DNA from: Chlorobium sp.
Lineage (GTDB): Bacteria > Bacteroidota > Chlorobiia > Chlorobiales > Chlorobiaceae
Assembly (NCBI GenBank): GCA_005862225.1
Contig: SZXV01000003.1
Coordinates: 62,001-126,000 of the forward strand
DNA: 64,000 bases
Direction: 5' to 3'
In this document: in pieces, positions 6,606-27,647 of the stretch
Layout of the letters: each line of letters begins with the position of its first letter
How positions within the stretch are numbered: position 1 is the first letter of the stretch
Notes under the pieces: generated by a model
What the model saw: the letters and a program-made list of their open reading frames with translations, nothing else
The model's database searches: none
What the model was told of the DNA's origin: nothing
Program-made: the position numbers and the translations under genes

Positions 6606-8009
6606 TCAATTTCCGAGAACTCTTTTCTCGATCTCATGTTTCAGTTCGTTGGCCAGCGCCTCAGCCCTGTCTCTTGTCGGCGCCTCGGTATAGATTCTCA
6701 CCACAGGTTCTGTGTTTGATGGTCGCAAGTGAACCCAACTGTCAACAAAATCAAGCTTAAGACCGTCAAGCATGCTGGCATCAGCGTTTTCGTACTGGCG
6801 GGCGATATCAGTAAATATTTTTTGCAGTGATGCATGACTTGCATTGCCAAGGACTATTTTTTGCTTTGACATAAAATAATCCGGAAACTGACGTCGGAAC
6901 TGCGACAGCAATCCACCATTGTTTGCTGAACGCCAGAGGGCAAATGCCTGCACAATAAGGGCAATGCCGACTAATGCGTCACGTCCATAGTGCAGTTCAG
7001 GTAAAATGACTCCACCATTTCCTTCACCACCGATAACGGCATGTTGTGCTTTCATCATCTCACTGACGTTAACTTCTCCAACTTTTGCACTGTAACACGC
7101 CACCCCGTATCGATTGGCAATATCCCGCAGTGCCCGGCTGCTTGAAAGATTGTTTGCCACGGCTCCGGGGTTGTGCTTCAGGTAAAAATCAGCACAGGCA
7201 ACCAGGGTATACTCTTCACCGAAGAGCGTGCCATCTTCACAGAGAAGTGCCAGCCGGTCAACATCAGGATCAACGATAATGGCAAAATCGCATTCACTCG
7301 CCCTGAGCGCGGCTATGGTGTCGGATAAATTTTCTTCAATTGGCTCAGGATTTCGGGGAAAAAGGCCAGTGCCGTCACAGGCAAACCGGACAATGCTTTC
7401 AATGCCGAGTCTTTCACAGAGTTTCGGAATAATCGCAGAGCCCGCTCCCTCGACACAGTCCACAAGAACTTTGAAATGTTCCCCTGTAATTGCGGCAGGA
7501 TTAATACAAGATAGCTGAAGTACCTTTTCAATATGATAGTCGTCATAGTCGCTTTTATGACTCATAGAGCCGAGGCCGTCCCAGCGCGCAGTGACAAACT
7601 CCTCTTTTTCCGCAATATCAAGAAGTTCAGCTACCTCCTCAGCGCTTAAAAACTCACCCAGATGGTTGAGCATTTTCAGTGCATTCCATTCGACAGGGTT
7701 GTGGGAAGCTGTAATAATAAGGCCGCCGTCGGCATGTTCTTTTGTTACGGCCATTTCTACCGTTGGAGTGGTGGCCATTCCGAGATCAATAACATCGCAC
7801 CCGCACAGGAGCAGCGTATTGCTCACCAGATCACTGACAGTCTTTCCGGTTGGTCTGGTATCCCTGCCAATAACAATTCTGGCTTTTTTTTTATGACTCC
7901 TCCGAAGAGTCCAGGCAGCAAAAGCGGTTGCAAAAGCAGTGAGATTTTTTGGAGTAAGGCTTTCGCCAACGACTCCTCTTATCCCGGAAACGCTGATCAT
8001 CAGGCTCAT
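6606..8009 (-). CDS. glmM: Phosphohexomutase, probable phosphoglucosamine/phosphomannomutase
   Basis: This alpha-D-phosphohexomutase interconverts hexose 6- and 1-phosphates. The motifs are complete: phosphoserine loop [13 protein letters not shown], metal loop DPDVDRLAL, sugar loop GGEGNGGVI and phosphate-binding [12 protein letters not shown]. The GEGNGG loop differs from the GEESGG of glucose-specific enzymes and resembles archaeal GlmM-type mutases, so glucosamine phosphate (for UDP-GlcNAc) is the favoured substrate, with mannose phosphate possible. An upstream in-frame ATG at 8090 would add 27 hydrophobic residues. I start at 8009 because the family begins with MISVSGIRG-like sequence close to the N-terminus. 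Neither start has a clear Shine-Dalgarno sequence. A second, different mutase lies at 26265. Confidence 0.85.
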
Positions 8010-8611: not shown

Positions 8612-9214
8612 ATGTTTGCATATTTTCGTGGTAAACTGGTGTCAGTTTTGCCTGAAGAAGCGATTGTCGAAGTTTCTGGTATTGCATATCGGCTTCTGAT
8701 TTCTGCAACGACCAGCCGTCACTTGCCTGAACCCGGAAATGAAGTGCTTCTTTTTTCACATCTTTATGTCAGGGAAGATGCCCTGCAACTTTACGGGTTT
8801 TCATGCGAAGAGGAGCGCCAACTGTTTCGGTTGCTTTTGCTGACTTCTGGTGTCGGTCCAAAGCTTGCGCTTGCTGTTCTTTCCGGGTTGCAGGTACAGG
8901 ATGTTCATGATGCTATTCTGGCCAATTCCCCTGAAAGACTTTATGGTATCTCCGGAGTTGGCAAGAAAACCGCCGCAAGGATTATCCTTGAGTTGCGGGA
9001 TAAAATTCTGAAACTGACTCCATCCGGGGGCATGGCCTCCACCGCTTCAATTCAAACGGCCAGGTTGCGTGAAGATGCCATCAATGCTCTTGTAACGCTT
9101 GGGTTTTCAAGGATCACCGTCCAAAAAGCCGTTGTCAGCATTCTTGAAAAAAATGCCGGGCTTACTGTCGAAGAGGTGGTTAAATCAGCGCTTGTTTCTA
9201 TTCATAACAATTAG
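8612..9214 (+). CDS. ruvA: Holliday junction branch migration protein RuvA
   Basis: RuvA binds four-way junctions and loads the RuvB motor. The 200-residue product has the N-terminal OB domain ([20 protein letters not shown]), the two helix-hairpin-helix elements [14 protein letters not shown] and [20 protein letters not shown], a flexible linker (about 140-150), and the C-terminal RuvB-contacting domain [15 protein letters not shown]. Length is normal. ruvB is not in this window. folC starts nine bases after the stop, so the two are probably co-transcribed. Confidence 0.97.
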
Positions 9215-9223
9215 CAGCTCACG

Positions 9224-10492
9224 GTGACCTACCAGGACGCTCTCGATTTTCTGTATCCTCTCCATCGGTTTGGAATCAAACCCGGACTTGATCGTGTCCG
9301 CTCACTGCTCAATTTCCTTGGTTCCCCTCATAAGCGACTGGGGCTGATTGTTCATATTGCGGGCACCAACGGGAAGGGGACGGTTGCGGCGGCCCTGGCC
9401 TCGATTTTTCAGGCAAGCGGCAGAAAAACAGCACTCTACACATCTCCTCATCTTGTTGATTTTACTGAAAGGATTCGAATCAATGGGGCGCAGATTCCGC
9501 GTGAATGCGTAGCTCAATATTGTGCTTTGTTCAAAGACGCTGTTGTTGAGAACCATTCCACTTTTTTTGAGGCGACGACGGCCATGGCGTTTGCCTGGTT
9601 TGCCGCTGAAGAAGTTGAAGTTTCCATTATAGAAACAGGGATGGGTGGCCGGCTTGATGCAACCAATGTCGTTGATGCTGATTACGTTGTCATCCCAAGT
9701 ATTGGTCTGGATCATACGGCGTGGCTTGGTGAAACTCTTGAGGATATTGCGACTGAAAAAGCGGCGATTATAAAAAAAGGGAGCATGGTATTTACTGCCG
9801 TCAGTCAACCTGAGGCATTTAGGCCAATCCAGAACATGGCGGAGTCGTGCAGGGCTTCACTTTTTGTTGCAGCAAGAGATGCGGTCAGCCGGGTTATTTC
9901 TTCTGAGCCGGGCATTCTTGAGCTTGAAGTCAGGACGGTATCCAATCACTATCCCATGCTGAAAGTGCCTCTGACAGGCTCTTTTCATGCCTCCAATGTT
10001 GCTCTTGCAGTCATGCTTGCTGAACATGCGGGAATTGCAGCGGAGCATATTTATTTGGGACTTGAAAGGTTATTGCAGACAGGCTACAGAGCCAGACTTG
10101 AGCGGATTGGCAACTCTCCGATGGTACTTCTCGACGTATCGCACAATGTTGATGGTATGCGGGCAACGGTCAATACGCTGTGTTCATTCCGGCAGGCATT
10201 TCGACGGGTGCATGTTGTGCTGGGACTCGCTTCAGACAAAGATGCGCAAGCAATTATTCGCGAGCTTCTTCGTCTTGACTGTACGTTTGTTCTGGTTAAT
10301 ATTCCATCCGAACGAAGTGTTCCGGCGGAAGCACTTTGTTCTTTATGCCACCAGATGGGAGCTGAGGCAACGATCAGCAGTCATGGGCGGGAAGGGCTTG
10401 GTTTCCTGCTTGAAAAAGCGGGAAATGATGATCTGATTCTGGTGACAGGCTCTTTTTATCTGGCAGGTGATATTATTACAGCATGTATATAA
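9224..10492 (+). CDS. folC: Folylpolyglutamate synthase / dihydrofolate synthase
   Basis: FolC adds glutamate to dihydropteroate and/or folates, using ATP. The 422-residue Mur-ligase-fold protein has the P-loop IAGTNGKGTVAAAL, an omega-loop-like TSPHLVDFTERIRI, IIETGMGGRLDATNV, and IGLDHTAWLGETLEDIATEK, followed by a C-terminal ligase domain (LLDVSHNVDGMRA). The start is GTG at 9224, nine bases after ruvA; no better-placed ATG fits the family N-terminus. Whether it has one or both activities cannot be told from sequence. Confidence 0.95.
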   Translation: MTYQDALDFLYPLHRFGIKPGLDRVRSLLNFLGSPHKRLGLIVHIAGTNGKGTVAAALASIFQASGRKTALYTSPHLVDFTERIRINGAQIPRECVAQYCALFKDAVVENHSTFFEATTAMAFAWFAAEEVEVSIIETGMGGRLDATNVVDADYVVIPSIGLDHTAWLGETLEDIATEKAAIIKKGSMVFTAVSQPEAFRPIQNMAESCRASLFVAARDAVSRVISSEPGILELEVRTVSNHYPMLKVPLTGSFHASNVALAVMLAEHAGIAAEHIYLGLERLLQTGYRARLERIGNSPMVLLDVSHNVDGMRATVNTLCSFRQAFRRVHVVLGLASDKDAQAIIRELLRLDCTFVLVNIPSERSVPAEALCSLCHQMGAEATISSHGREGLGFLLEKAGNDDLILVTGSFYLAGDIITACI

Positions 10493-10601
10493 TAAAGCAA
10501 TCGCGGGAAATGCGTGTTTTTATGGATATTTTTTTATATTTGATGCAAGTTACTGAGATTCATTCATGTACTTAGAAGAAATTCCTTTCCATAATTCCTT
10601 G

Positions 10602-10629
10602 TTGTGATTATCCCGTTTTCAATTATAGA
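10602..10629 (+). promoter_or_regulatory. Candidate sigma-70 promoter for rho
   Basis: TTGTGA (10602-10607) and TATAGA (10624-10629) are 16 bases apart in the 314-base gap before rho. This would give a leader of about 170 bases carrying the two stems described separately. Seen by eye only; many AT-rich gaps offer similar matches. Confidence 0.35.
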
Positions 10630-10705
10630 TATTCTTCCCCTGTCATATTCTTTTTCCTGCTTTCATGTTACATGACAGAGCGTTAAAGGTAATTTCCGTT
10701 ATTGA

Positions 10706-10759
10706 TTCGTGGCTTTGACCACGAAGCTGGACGCCCCATACACGAGAGGGGTTTAGTCC
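10706..10759 (+). ncRNA. Structured 5' leader of rho, two consecutive stem-loops
   Basis: The gap between folC and rho contains two clean stems. The first is TTCGTGG (10706-10712) with CCACGAA (10719-10725), loop CTTTGA. The second is GGAC (10729-10732) with GTCC (10756-10759), enclosing CCCC (10734-10737) with GGGG (10748-10751) and a ten-base loop. The second hairpin is not followed by a tight T-run, so it is not a simple intrinsic terminator. rho mRNAs are autoregulated in several bacteria by Rho-dependent termination in the leader, so a regulatory role is plausible. I recognise no known RNA family. The remaining roughly 200 bases of this gap hold no supported gene. Confidence 0.5.
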
Positions 10760-10806
10760 GTACTTTTGCTTTGGCTTTTTTAACAAGCGTTGAATACTAA
10801 TATACA

Positions 10807-12096
10807 ATGTCGAACAATTCGATTTTTAAAGGTCTGGACATTAATATGCTCCAGAAAAAAAAGGTTGCTGAGTTGCATGCTTTAGCCAAAGAGTTGGGGG
10901 TGATGGCTGCGGGCTTACGAAAAGAAGAGTTGATTTTCAAGATTATTGAAGCTCAGTCCCAGAAGAATACCGATTCTGAAAGCGGTAATGTCATGGTTAA
11001 TACCGGCGTTTTGCAGGTTATCCCTGAAGGTTATGGTTTCCTGCGATCCGCCAATTACAACTACCTCTCTTCCCCTGATGATATTTATGTCTCTCCCTCT
11101 CAGATTAAACGGTTTAACATGCGTACGGGAGATACGGTATCAGGCCAGGTAAGGGCTCCAAAAGAGGGGGAGCGATTTTTTGCTTTGCTGAAGATTAATA
11201 CGATTGATGGCAACGATCCTGAAATTACAAGAGAGAGGCCATATTTTGAAAACCTGACACCTCTTTTTCCTCGTGAACGCCTCAAGCTTGAAACAAAGCA
11301 GTCTGAAGCCTGTGGACGCATTATGGATATTTTTACCCCGATCGGAAAAGGACAGCGGGGATTGATTGTGGCACAGCCGAAAACTGGCAAAACCATGCTT
11401 CTGCAGATGATTGCCAATGCGATCATAAAAAATCATCCAGAGGTTTACCTTATTGTATTGCTTATTGATGAGCGCCCGGAAGAGGTGACCGACATGGCCA
11501 GAAGTGTTCCGGCCGAAGTAGTAAGTTCGACCTTTGATGAAGATCCTGAACGTCATGTGCTTGTTGCAGACATGGTTCTCGAAAAGGCAAAACGGCTTGT
11601 TGAAGTTGGCCGGGACGTGGTGGTACTGCTCGACTCTATTACCCGCCTTGCAAGGGCTCATAATACCATCATTCCTCATTCCGGAAAAATCCTTTCGGGT
11701 GGTATTGATGCAAATGCGCTTACAAAGCCAAAGCGTTTTTTTGGCGCTGCCAGAAATATTGAGGAAGGCGGCAGTCTGACCATTATCGCCACAGCGCTTA
11801 TTGATACTGGTTCGCGAATGGATGACGTCATCTTTGAAGAGTTTAAAGGGACAGGAAATATGGAGCTGCTGCTTGATCGCCGCCTCTCTGAGCGCCGTAT
11901 CTTTCCATCCATCGATATTCTTCGCTCCAGTACTCGTAAAGAGGAACTGCTTTTTACACAGGACGAACTTTCCAGGACATGGTTGCTCCGAAAGTATCTT
12001 GCCGATAAAAATCCGATCGAGTGTATGGAGTTCATGCGGGAGAAAATGGCGGACACCAAGGATAACAAGGATTTTTTCAAATACATGAACGCCTGA
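10807..12096 (+). CDS. rho: Transcription termination factor Rho
   Basis: Rho is the hexameric RNA-dependent ATPase that ends untranslated transcripts. The 429-residue protein has the N-terminal helical domain ([14 protein letters not shown]), a cold-shock-like RNA-binding domain ([17 protein letters not shown] to about 130), the P-loop [11 protein letters not shown] (from 189), Walker [17 protein letters not shown], and the Q/R-loop region [20 protein letters not shown]. Length is normal, without the long N-terminal insertion seen in some phyla. It sits alone behind a structured leader, with no Shine-Dalgarno sequence obvious before the ATG. Confidence 0.98.
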
Positions 12097-24146: not shown

Positions 24147-24659
24147 TCAAGGCCGAGGCCCGATTGATCGATCCATGCTTCCGAAATGTTTGTGCGTAGC
24201 AATGCGCTCAAGCACTTTTTTCAGTGAATCCCGTTGTTCTGGCACGCATACTTCAGCAAGCTCATGAAAATGCAGGGCAAGTTCACGTTCTATCGTTGCC
24301 TGATGGGAACCGATGTTAGCAGCGAGTTCCCCAATTGTTTTCATATCAGGTTTATCTTTCAACGATTCTTCAACCAGTTGAGTTTTGAGCAGGTTAATTG
24401 CCTCCATTTCAGGTCTTACTTTGACAACATGTTCCTGCCGCAGCTTACGGAAAGTGAGGTTTTGTGCCTCTGAAAGGCCCAGAGGTACAAAAAAAGGGTT
24501 TTGTTGTCCATTGTGATGCCTTTGCGGAAAGAATGGCGGCAGTTTATGGATGTGCTGCCACCAAACAACACCAAGCAGTGTTACATTGCACATGACAAGA
24601 AGCGCTAACGCTATTGAAACAAACCGTTTTGAAGAAATAAAGTTCATTTGACGACTCAC
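24147..24659 (-). CDS. Spy/CpxP-like periplasmic protein, membrane anchored
   Basis: 170 residues: an N-terminal membrane helix (about 11-31), a His/Gln/Pro-rich spacer, then an all-helical Spy/CpxP/CnrX-type domain with LGLSEAQNLTFRKLRQEH and VPEQRDSLKKVL. It is a diverged paralogue of the next gene: both share the pattern ESLK..PD.K.I..L...IG and P.QRDS at matching places. Proteins of this fold act as periplasmic chaperones or metal sensors that control envelope stress sigma factors. It is the last gene of the sigma/anti-sigma module. Confidence 0.75.
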   Translation of the reverse strand: MSRQMNFISSKRFVSIALALLVMCNVTLLGVVWWQHIHKLPPFFPQRHHNGQQNPFFVPLGLSEAQNLTFRKLRQEHVVKVRPEMEAINLLKTQLVEESLKDKPDMKTIGELAANIGSHQATIERELALHFHELAEVCVPEQRDSLKKVLERIATHKHFGSMDRSIGPRP

Positions 24660-24736
24660 TTTTGTTGTCCGGGTGTATATGAAAGCAGGTCGTCACCTTA
24701 GACCGGCCTGCTCTTTAACGGCACAAGCCTGATTTT

Positions 24737-25204
24737 TTATTGTCCCATCATCATACGACAACCACCACGCACAGGCATGGGCTCCTTCATGGCTCTCATG
24801 GAAGAGTCGCGCTGTGCCGGGGTTAATATCGAGTTCATTTCTGTTAAATGAGTGCTCTTCAGTCGAGCAAGCACGGCATACTGCTTGCCGATTTTTTCTG
24901 AAAGCAAGTCAATTTTTTTGGCATCAGGGGCAGCTTTCAGTGATTCATCCCGTAACTCGCGCTCAAACGTCATGAGCTTTCTGCGTTCTGCAGAAACGAG
25001 GCGAAAATGTTTTGCCTGGATATCCTCCATCTGCTCACATTGCCGGTCGTTCAAGCCGAGATTGTGCTGCATCATATCCATTCTGCATTCCGGCATGTTT
25101 CCTGGTAGTGGACAACCCATACCCCGCTGGAAATTTGGATCCGCAGAAGCAGAGCTGACACCAAGAAGCACTGCAGCCGTCAAAATCATCAATGTTTTTT
25201 TCAT
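24737..25204 (-). CDS. Spy/CpxP-like secreted periplasmic protein, Met/Cys-rich
   Basis: 155 residues with a clear cleavable signal peptide (KKTLMILTAAVLLGVSSASA) and a helical domain with LGLNDRQCEQMEDIQAKHF and a near-canonical LTPAQRDS motif, the LTxxQ signature of Spy/CpxP. The mature ends are Met- and Cys-rich (CPLPGNMPECRMDMMQ and CRMMMGQ), suggesting soft-metal binding. It lies between the probable anti-sigma gene and its paralogue. The 77-base gap to the paralogue holds a hairpin-forming pair, AGCAGG (24684-24689) with CCTGCT (24707-24712), which might separate the two mRNAs. Confidence 0.8.
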   Translation of the reverse strand: MKKTLMILTAAVLLGVSSASADPNFQRGMGCPLPGNMPECRMDMMQHNLGLNDRQCEQMEDIQAKHFRLVSAERRKLMTFERELRDESLKAAPDAKKIDLLSEKIGKQYAVLARLKSTHLTEMNSILTPAQRDSSMRAMKEPMPVRGGCRMMMGQ

Positions 25205-25267
25205 CGAATATTCCTTGTTTTAATTTCGTTTGCTTGCGAAGCGTTTGTTATTAAAGAGTGCGTTCAA

Positions 25268-25627
25268 TCAGGGAGTCTGGTTTTCATAAGAGGCGGTCTG
25301 ATCATAATATGCAAACTCCTGGTTCGAGTAGTCCTCACTCTGGCTGACAGGCACTTCACTGATCGTTGTTATTGTTTCATCACCTTGCCGAACTGACAGC
25401 ATTGTGGACCCGAGATTAACAGCAAGAAGCAAGACCATAAATGCAAGTCTGTAATCAATGCGAAAACCGGGATATTTTATATGTTTTTCCTGACCGATTT
25501 CATTATCGATTCTCTGCATCAATCGAACTCTGAATTGATGATGAACCTCAAGAGGCGCTAGCTCATCAAGCAAATCCATAGTTTTGCGGACTTCTGCTTC
25601 TATGTTGTCATCATGCTGCTTCATCAT
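25268..25627 (-). CDS. Probable anti-sigma factor, single-pass membrane protein
   Basis: No named family is certain. The product has about 55 charged, helical cytoplasmic residues (VRKTMDLLDELAPLEVHHQF), one membrane helix (LAFMVLLLAVNLGSTML), and about 40 outside residues rich in Ser, Gln and Tyr. That topology, and its place directly after an ECF sigma gene, are typical of anti-sigma factors. I start at ATG 25627 (or the adjacent ATG 25624) because GGAG lies just upstream; the same frame opens at 25666 without such a signal. The short outer segment is a plausible contact for the two Spy-like proteins. Confidence 0.6.
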   Translation of the reverse strand: MMKQHDDNIEAEVRKTMDLLDELAPLEVHHQFRVRLMQRIDNEIGQEKHIKYPGFRIDYRLAFMVLLLAVNLGSTMLSVRQGDETITTISEVPVSQSEDYSNQEFAYYDQTASYENQTP

Positions 25628-25687
25628 TTTCTCCGGTTTCATGATATGTGACGACAGTTTTATCAAAAACTTGTGTTCATTCCAAAA

Positions 25688-26230
25688 TTAATGTTCTGAG
25701 TAATAGCGACAGAGTTTTTCATGAAGGTTTTTTTTTGCTCTGTGCACGAGAGATTCAACTCCTGAAACTGATGTTTGGAGGATATCGGCAATCTCCTGAT
25801 TGCTGTATCCCTCCTGCTTGCTGAGCAAAAATGCGGTTTTCTGGCTTTCAGGGAGCGTATTCAGTGCATCCTGCAAAATTCGGGCCCGTTCGTTCTGGGC
25901 TAATGCCTCGGGTGGATTATTATTGGAGGGGGCGGCAATATCATCAGCCGGATCACTCATGCCGATCATTCTTTTAAGAGAACTGAACCTTTTTTTTCTG
26001 TTCAGATGGCGCAGGTGGTCAAGCGATTTCGTGACTGCAATTCGGTATATCCAGGTTGAAAGTTTTGACTCTTCACGAAACTGTTCAAGAGATCGAAAGA
26101 CCTCGACAAAAACATCCTGTGCCAGATCCTCAGCATCTTCACGGTTAAAGACAAATCGGTAACAGGTATTAACCACCATCTCCTGGTGTTCTGCCACAAT
26201 GCTCCTGAACAGCGTTTCTTTTGAAGCCAT
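25688..26230 (-). CDS. ECF RNA polymerase sigma factor (RpoE-like)
   Basis: About 180 residues with region 2 ([20 protein letters not shown] and [18 protein letters not shown]) and region 4 ([51 protein letters not shown]). It should direct polymerase to its own operon and other targets once released by an anti-sigma factor. The same frame opens at 26335, but that would overlap the end of the phosphoglucomutase gene; [12 protein letters not shown] at 26230 matches the usual N-terminus. The module order sigma, membrane protein, Spy-like, Spy-like suggests control by envelope or metal stress. Confidence 0.9.
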
Positions 26231-26264: not shown

Positions 26265-27647
26265 TCAAGCAAGTTTGGCCGCAAAAGCAAGAACCTTGTC
26301 AACCTTTTCCTGTGAGTCAGCTTCACAATAGACACGCAGCACCGGTTCGGTGCCCGATGGTCTGATCAGCATCCATCCCCCTTCAAAATGATACTTGTAT
26401 CCATCAAGATTGCTAAATTTCAGTACCTTGTATCCTGCAATGTTCGAAAGTTCGCCGGTAGCGGCACGATCGATAATCGCCTGTTTTTTTGTTTCGTGGA
26501 CACGCAAATCGAGGCGGTTGTAACAGAAAAAACCATACTCATCATACAATTCCTGAACAAGTTCCGAGAGAGTTTTTTCTCGGCGTGTCATCATTTCCAG
26601 TATCAGGAGACCAGTATAGACACCATCTCGTTCCGGCAGAAATGCGGGGATGCCAATACCGCCGGACTCTTCACCTCCGATCAGGATGTCATTGGTGGTC
26701 ATGAGCTTGCTGAGATGCTTGAATCCGATTTGCAGCTCATGCATGATAAGGTGATGTTTCTGGCAGATTTTGTCGATGACATCTGTCAGGGCAAATGTTT
26801 TTGCAACTTCACCGGTTTTGTGCTTTTCTTCGACCATATCCTTGAGAATAATCGCAAAAAGCTTATGAGAATCAACAAACGAGCCGTTTTCGTCGAGCAT
26901 CCCTATCCGGTCGGCATCTCCATCATTAATGATTGCGACATCTGTTTCAACCTCGTTGAAAAACTCAATAAACTCTTTGATATACTGAGGCATTGGCTCA
27001 GGATTAATGCCGCCGAAACTGGGGTTAATGCTGCAATGATAACAACTGAGCATTGATTCATCAAACAGGTTGGAGATAAGATCCTGTCCTGCTCCGTACA
27101 TGGCATTGTGCGCAATTTTTATTCTTGACTCGCGGATCAGCGGCAGATCTATGCTGCATTTCAGATGGCTGACGTAATATCCTTTCATATCAATCAGCTC
27201 AATCATTTTTTTGTCAGGCACAATAATCGTGTCAGAGTCTGTCAACGTCAGATTGTGTTCGATTTCAGCGATCACCTCCGGGTGTGCAGGGCCTCCAAAA
27301 GGTGACTTTATTTTAAAGCCATTGTATAATGCCGGATTGTGAGATGCTGTAATAACTATGCCTCCTGCAAGCTGTTTTGCTTTCGTATAGAGGGAGACTG
27401 CCGGTGTGGAAACAAAAGAATCTGACAGAAACACTCTGATGCCCTGGGAAGAAAGCACATTCGCGGTATATTCAGCAAACTCTTTTGACATGAAGCGGGT
27501 ATCATAGCCAACACAGACACCTTTTGACCTGTTTGGATGGCCAAGAAAATAGCGAGCTGATGCAAGCGCTACAAGTTTCAGATTATCAAAAGTATAATCC
27601 TTTGCAATAATAGCTCTCCACCCGTCCGTCCCAAATTTAATTTGCAT
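26265..27647 (-). CDS. Phosphoglucomutase-type phosphohexomutase
   Basis: 460 residues of the alpha-D-phosphohexomutase fold: N-terminal [11 protein letters not shown], phosphoserine loop [16 protein letters not shown], metal loop [10 protein letters not shown], sugar loop GGEESGGIG, and phosphate loop [15 protein letters not shown]. The GEESGG loop favours glucose phosphate, so it most likely links glucose 6-phosphate and glucose 1-phosphate for glycogen and sugar nucleotides. It differs from the GEGNGG mutase at 6606. The sigma factor gene starts 34 bases after it on the same strand. Confidence 0.9.

Follow-up and report, generated by a model that had tools for sequence, protein, structure and literature searches.

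The sigma factor locus and its conservation

The window (the whole stretch of 64,000 nucleotides that was analysed) carries on its minus strand, in the order pgm, sigma, anti-sigma, spy1, spy2, an ECF sigma factor gene followed by genes for a candidate membrane anti-sigma factor and two Spy-like proteins (Table 1), with a convergent polysaccharide flippase gene downstream and a divergent lpxB gene upstream. The four genes from sigma to spy2 had been described in an earlier note on this DNA, and the description is confirmed, the sigma factor and both Spy-like proteins having Pfam matches. The sigma factor is an ordinary one of ECF-type sequence, consisting of regions sigma2 and sigma4 only, and the nearest sequences in the PDB are SigH, RpoE and SigW, with CnrH at 9e-13. 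Two alternative starts were rejected: a GTG at 24659 for spy2, in favour of the ATG at 24647, and an ATG at 25642 for the anti-sigma gene, which falls within the promoter or leader, a conserved ribosome-binding site preceding 25627. In several relatives (loci L092, L094, L096 and L097) the sigma factor is extended in frame at its N-terminus by about 25 residues (e.g., MAIMGNAEVATIAGKAETNALHRSA) that are absent in the window.

Table 1. Genes and predicted promoter of the sigma factor locus, in window coordinates.
Feature	Position	Strand	Basis or detail
pgm/pmm gene	26265..27647	-	Pfam PGM_PMM domains; 34-nt gap upstream of sigma
ECF sigma factor, 180 aa	25688..26230	-	Pfam Sigma70_r2 (9e-19), Sigma70_r4_2 (4e-17)
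Predicted ECF-type promoter, 16-base spacer	25650..25673	-	-35 CAAG at 25673-25670, -10 CGTC at 25653-25650
Candidate membrane anti-sigma factor, 119 aa	25268..25627	-	Directly after sigma; topology; tail with EDYSNQEFAYYDQ
spy1, secreted Spy-like protein, optional member	24737..25204	-	PF13801 (2e-9); signal-peptide-like N-terminus
spy2, inner-membrane-anchored CnrX/Spy-like protein, universal member	24147..24647	-	PF13801 (7e-14); N-terminal membrane helix

Sequence searches covering 40 relatives and 40 genus members, plus a scan of named genomes, provide the check proposed in the earlier note, a look for the same order in other Chlorobi: sigma is accompanied by anti-sigma and spy2, in this order, at all 55 Chlorobiaceae loci having upstream sequence, including those of Chlorobium and Chlorobaculum, and spy1, where it adjoins the operon (21 of the 55), lies between anti-sigma and spy2. 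The order is not due to chance, and as far as sequence can tell the block is a fixture of the Chlorobiaceae, present in essentially all green sulfur bacteria. Within the genus, the anti-sigma gene was detected in 38 of 41 genomes; the other three (G022, G021 and G012) either lack pgm, which is kept upstream of sigma in all neighbourhoods compared, or have a contig end inside it, so that the absence of the operon there looks like an assembly gap. In other families of the phylum the layout, complete with the anti-sigma tail and the anchored Spy protein, recurs with diverged parts: one locus outside the Chlorobiaceae (L345) encodes a sigma factor, a 103-residue anti-sigma factor and an anchored Spy protein, another (L111) a sigma factor, a 98-residue anti-sigma factor, an anchored Spy protein, a further protein and a secreted Spy protein, and at a third (L076) the anti-sigma tail, AYNMDVPTIYDQP, resembles that of Chlorobium. 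In two genomes (L101 and L100), the gene directly behind spy2, some 1600-2450 nt from the start of sigma, is a membrane gene resembling cytochrome b561 or DUF4405.

The predicted promoter and its targets

All 22 genomes of the first set have CACAAGTTTTT...CCTGTCGTC, or a close variant of it, at a nearly fixed distance between the sigma stop codon and the ribosome-binding site of the anti-sigma gene. Of the 55 Chlorobiaceae loci in the wider set, 47 score above 10 bits at this place, and only one does not have CGTC in register. A matrix built solely from the sigma/anti-sigma sites of 21 of the 22 first-set genomes has a single strong match in the window (25648-25679, score 37.2; next best 9.6), CAAG-N16-CGTC occurs only there within the 64 kb, and the spacing of 16 is enriched (42 sites, against 4-22 at other spacings). 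CAAG-N16-CGTC is thus predicted to be a conserved ECF-type promoter, and we infer that the sigma factor of the operon reads it; two other ECF loci of the window genome lack the site. An ECF promoter for the operon had been anticipated by the earlier note, and one is indeed predicted, with a conserved sequence, but it lies inside the operon, before the anti-sigma gene, and not upstream of sigma. In 12 of the 22 genomes sigma itself is preceded by a further site with the same spacing, mostly GCAnGAAT-N13-ACGTC; in the window and nine other genomes there is no ECF site upstream of sigma, which begins 12-80 nt behind pgm. Because pgm abuts sigma and no ECF site intervenes, the likely source of the sigma transcript in the window genome is read-through from pgm. 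A hairpin at the ribosome-binding site of the anti-sigma gene (CCTGT...ACAGG) was rejected, since sequences that keep its 5' arm do not keep the 3' arm; the conservation can be explained without it.

Dispersed spy1-like genes that had been collected by protein similarity, independently of the motif, also have a site according to the same, unchanged matrix: it lies about 60-110 nt upstream of two such genes in G004 and of those in G011, G023 and G007. Sites are also found upstream of spy1-like genes in G041 and G053. Scanned for the pattern, 41 genus genomes yielded 54 matches, compared with 11 for the reversed control. When those outside the operon were mapped, one target recurred: a TolC-type gene with an HlyD gene and a MacB gene behind it, of which the Pfam domains (OEP; HlyD; MacB_PCD, ABC and FtsX) indicate tolC-macA-macB. 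When these loci were fetched by protein similarity within the genus, 29 of 29 had a site 48-85 nt upstream, 28 scoring at least 6 and 23 at least 10; among 1450 shuffled controls 0.3% reached 6 and none reached 10, the best being 9.5. About seven of ten more distant macAB copies have a recognisable site, in some cases a weak one, and the rest have none, while nine of ten tolC copies of Chlorobaculum show, by eye and unscored, a related element (GGAAA...GCGTC or similar), a variant with GCTGGAAA as its -35.

The bare motif is not specific genome-wide (33 matches with one mismatch allowed, 61 for the reversed control), so the predicted regulon rests on conserved positions; likewise, no regulon can be called from GCANG-N16-ACGTC by itself, which in the window genome is at the level of its control (10 matches against 12). 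Exact matches in the window genome at L174, L198, L199 and L200 were set aside as chance occurrences with low scores that overlap open frames, and a DUF1566-like gene of G020 and G054, about 290 nt downstream of a site, was judged too far away to be a target. The predicted regulon comprises the anti-sigma factor, Spy proteins and a MacAB-TolC ABC efflux pump; the targets located include no metal RND pump and no metal ATPase. In G004 a strong ECF site (35.7 bits, near 4393 of L106; L106/L197, G004:C98) lies upstream of a BamA/POTRA-like gene that is seemingly split in two frames, which hints at a possible place for outer-membrane assembly in the regulon of that genome. In G015 (L190, around position 1143), a gene resembling cytochrome b561 or DUF4405 has its own CAAG-N16-CGTC 51 nt upstream.

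The anti-sigma candidate and the Spy-like proteins

The protein encoded between sigma and the spy genes has no match in Pfam, NCBIfam or the PDB sequences: the hits of its profile in the PDB were dismissed as being at chance level only, and CnrY was not matched in that search. The HxxxCxxC signature of zinc-finger (ZAS, class I) anti-sigma factors is missing, most of the homologues having no cysteine, and the protein is a candidate anti-sigma factor by its position and topology only. A structural model (AF2, with a low pLDDT of 65) predicts cytosolic helices at residues 3-21 and 32-48, a transmembrane helix at 59-80 and a disordered periplasmic tail. The tail includes a conserved acidic-aromatic stretch, DDYSxQEFAYYDQ, within which 41 of 42 homologues, some with as little as 32% identity, keep Y-x5-AYY; that so short a motif is conserved while the rest of the disordered tail varies suggests that these nine residues are a contact site.

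Both Spy-like proteins are above the curated cut-off of PF13801, Metal_resist (29.2 bits), spy2 scoring 52.5 and spy1 38.1. Matches of spy2 to PDB sequences (LRRK2) were dismissed as chance, and structure comparison was needed instead. The hairpin of spy2 is confidently modelled (AF2, pLDDT of about 90 or more at residues 60-140), and its best matches are CnrX (Z about 11), ZraP (10.9), CpxP (9.3) and Spy (9.1), but a Z of about 11 is below the caution level of the comparison tool for helical hairpins and the best Foldseek E-value is weak (0.03), so that the homology of spy2 rests mainly on the Pfam match. The structural alignment of spy2 with CnrX (2y3b) is gapless with an offset of 7, which allows the ligand positions of CnrX to be checked in spy2. 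Of the first-shell ligands of CnrX, which we take to be H42, H46, E63, H119 and M123 (E63 and M123 also from PDB titles), only H119 is kept, as H126; H46, E63 and M123 correspond to F53, R70 and L130, and H42 corresponds to Q49, just beyond the aligned range. With one ligand of five kept, a CnrX-like Ni/Co site is not present in spy2. Across the aligned set H126 and C134 do not vary and H73 hardly does, and a different metal site may be built from H73, H126 or C134.

The earlier note had paired an anchored with a secreted, Met/Cys-rich Spy-like protein as a joint sensor. Both proteins are there in the window, but the Met/Cys-rich ends of spy1 are peculiar to the window and its near relatives, and joint sensing is doubtful, given that spy2 is universal and spy1 optional and effector-like. 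With extra copies elsewhere under the same type of predicted promoter, spy1 behaves like a regulated effector. The window genome has a third Spy-like gene downstream of genes for an ABC ATPase, a membrane fusion protein and a TolC-like protein (L110, G000:C7:24000-40000, 7378-7665 and 8676-11825, minus strand), where no matching ECF site was found in the right orientation.

A possible envelope-stress switch and its precedents

Gene order, family membership, conservation of the tail and the common predicted promoter are features of the sequence itself. We consider it probable (roughly 60%) that the locus is an envelope-stress switch, composed of a sigma factor, an anti-sigma factor and a Spy-like sensor, with Spy proteins and MacAB-TolC as its output; we infer that the sigma factor, anti-sigma factor and Spy proteins bind one another and that the signal is envelope stress. 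The sigma factor would be held by the single-pass anti-sigma factor, whose two predicted helices in the cytosol probably clamp it in the way that CnrY clamps CnrH, and the periplasmic tail would probably be read by spy2, keeping the inhibitor in its holding state. Misfolded envelope proteins or another envelope insult would engage the Spy-like hairpin and change the complex, freeing the sigma factor to transcribe from CAAG-N16-CGTC promoters. Since in the window sigma has no site of its own and the site comes after it, activation would lead to more inhibitor and more Spy proteins but no more sigma, making the predicted loop a purely negative, shut-off loop; the second site upstream of sigma in about half of the relatives would add self-activation. 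The remaining output would be extra Spy chaperones and the TolC-MacA-MacB efflux pump. A tentative elaboration, against which the odds are somewhat turned, is that the DDYSxQEFAYYDQ tail mimics an unfolded client: the spy2 hairpin would hold the tail at rest, misfolded proteins would displace the tail by competition, and the sigma factor would be released, so that the chaperone reports its own occupancy to the sigma factor and the placement of the promoter yields more inhibitor and chaperone, not sigma. Literature searches turned up no studied envelope-stress regulator in green sulfur bacteria, for which the locus is a universal candidate regulator of this kind in the Chlorobiaceae, for which both a promoter code and a short regulon can be predicted; it is also a compact system for studying signal transfer from Spy/CpxP-fold proteins in the periplasm to an anti-sigma factor, with Y-x5-AYY as the suspected contact point.

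The signal might instead be a transition or soft metal, bound by spy2 in a CnrYXH-type switch that frees the sigma factor and induces metal defence. The Metal_resist family of both Spy-like proteins, the closeness of the spy2 fold to CnrX, the strong conservation of H73, H126 (CnrX H119) and C134 and the Met/Cys-rich ends of the window's spy1 speak for such a switch, but those ends are not conserved, three CnrX ligands are replaced by phenylalanine, arginine and leucine, and the predicted targets located include MacAB-TolC but no metal RND pump or metal ATPase. Soft-metal sensing, put forward in the earlier note, thus appears doubtful, and envelope or misfolding stress is favoured as the most likely signal, because only one of five CnrX ligands is kept in spy2 and the one pump found among the predicted targets is MacAB and not a metal RND pump.

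The constancy of the site upstream of tolC-macA-macB, and the spy-like gene beside the ABC transporter, membrane fusion and TolC-like genes of the window genome, would also suit a switch that responds to some toxic small molecule or peptide which MacAB-TolC exports, Spy giving accessory protection in a BaeSR-like logic working through a sigma factor; the presence of spy2 in every operon and of extra regulated spy genes in several genomes makes such tuning unlikely. That the site and the pump belong to another sigma factor, the operon being just co-located or cross-regulated, is improbable: the -35 differs between targets and G022 keeps the tolC site with no operon detected, but the site is best conserved inside the operon itself and absent from the window genome's two other ECF loci, and the state of pgm in G022, G021 and G012 is consistent with assembly gaps.

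Spy/CpxP-fold periplasmic proteins act as feedback inhibitor or chaperone in the Cpx and Bae systems, and Bae joins Spy with efflux, but these systems have two-component kinases in place of a sigma/anti-sigma pair. The closest precedents are CnrYXH and CirY-CirZ-Spy. In CnrYXH of Cupriavidus metallidurans, a CnrX-fold protein works with a one-pass anti-sigma factor, the loss of either of which frees the sigma factor (PMC4803752), and CnrH transcribes its own regulatory genes and an efflux operon (PMC4803752, PMC4598750). The Chlorobiaceae locus shares with it an ECF sigma factor and an anchored protein of predicted CnrX-like fold, a putative sensor, and its small anti-sigma candidate may, going by the low-confidence model, likewise have two cytosolic helices and a single transmembrane helix; the locus differs in gene order, in the absence of the CnrX metal site, in the extra secreted Spy protein, in the Y-x5-AYY tail, in the predicted promoter between sigma and anti-sigma and in having an ABC (MacAB) and not an RND pump. 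The earlier note's view that the genes form a single module, which resembles Cnr and CpxP in its logic but has another membrane partner, is supported, in that the order is kept, an ECF promoter is predicted, the fold of spy2 is nearest to CnrX, ZraP, CpxP and Spy, and the anti-sigma candidate has a conserved tail of its own.

CirY-CirZ-Spy of Phocaeicola vulgatus (Bacteroidales, distant from Chlorobi), reported in 2026, likewise has an ECF sigma factor, an anti-sigma factor and a Spy-like gene in one operon, and deletion of the anti-sigma gene cirZ raises cirY and spy, which places spy under the control of the sigma factor there (PMC13114119); it differs in that one Spy per operon is reported, the sigma factor induces itself and the other targets are two cell-wall genes (PMC13114119). 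The likeness is one of gene layout, regulation of spy in the Chlorobiaceae being deduced from the common predicted promoter upstream of the anti-sigma and spy genes and of the dispersed spy genes. The promoter placed after sigma is a feature of the window not described in CnrYXH or CirYZ-Spy. In another phylum, an Azospirillum operon annotated as RpoE8, a hypothetical protein and a "periplasmic heavy metal sensor" (PMC12826043) has, by annotation, the same three-gene layout. At one locus from another family of the same phylum as the window (L335, G037:C31, 416-1905), a sigma factor is followed by a zinc-finger-type (HxxxCxxC) anti-sigma factor and an anchored Spy protein, so that anchored Spy proteins pair with two unrelated classes of anti-sigma factor.
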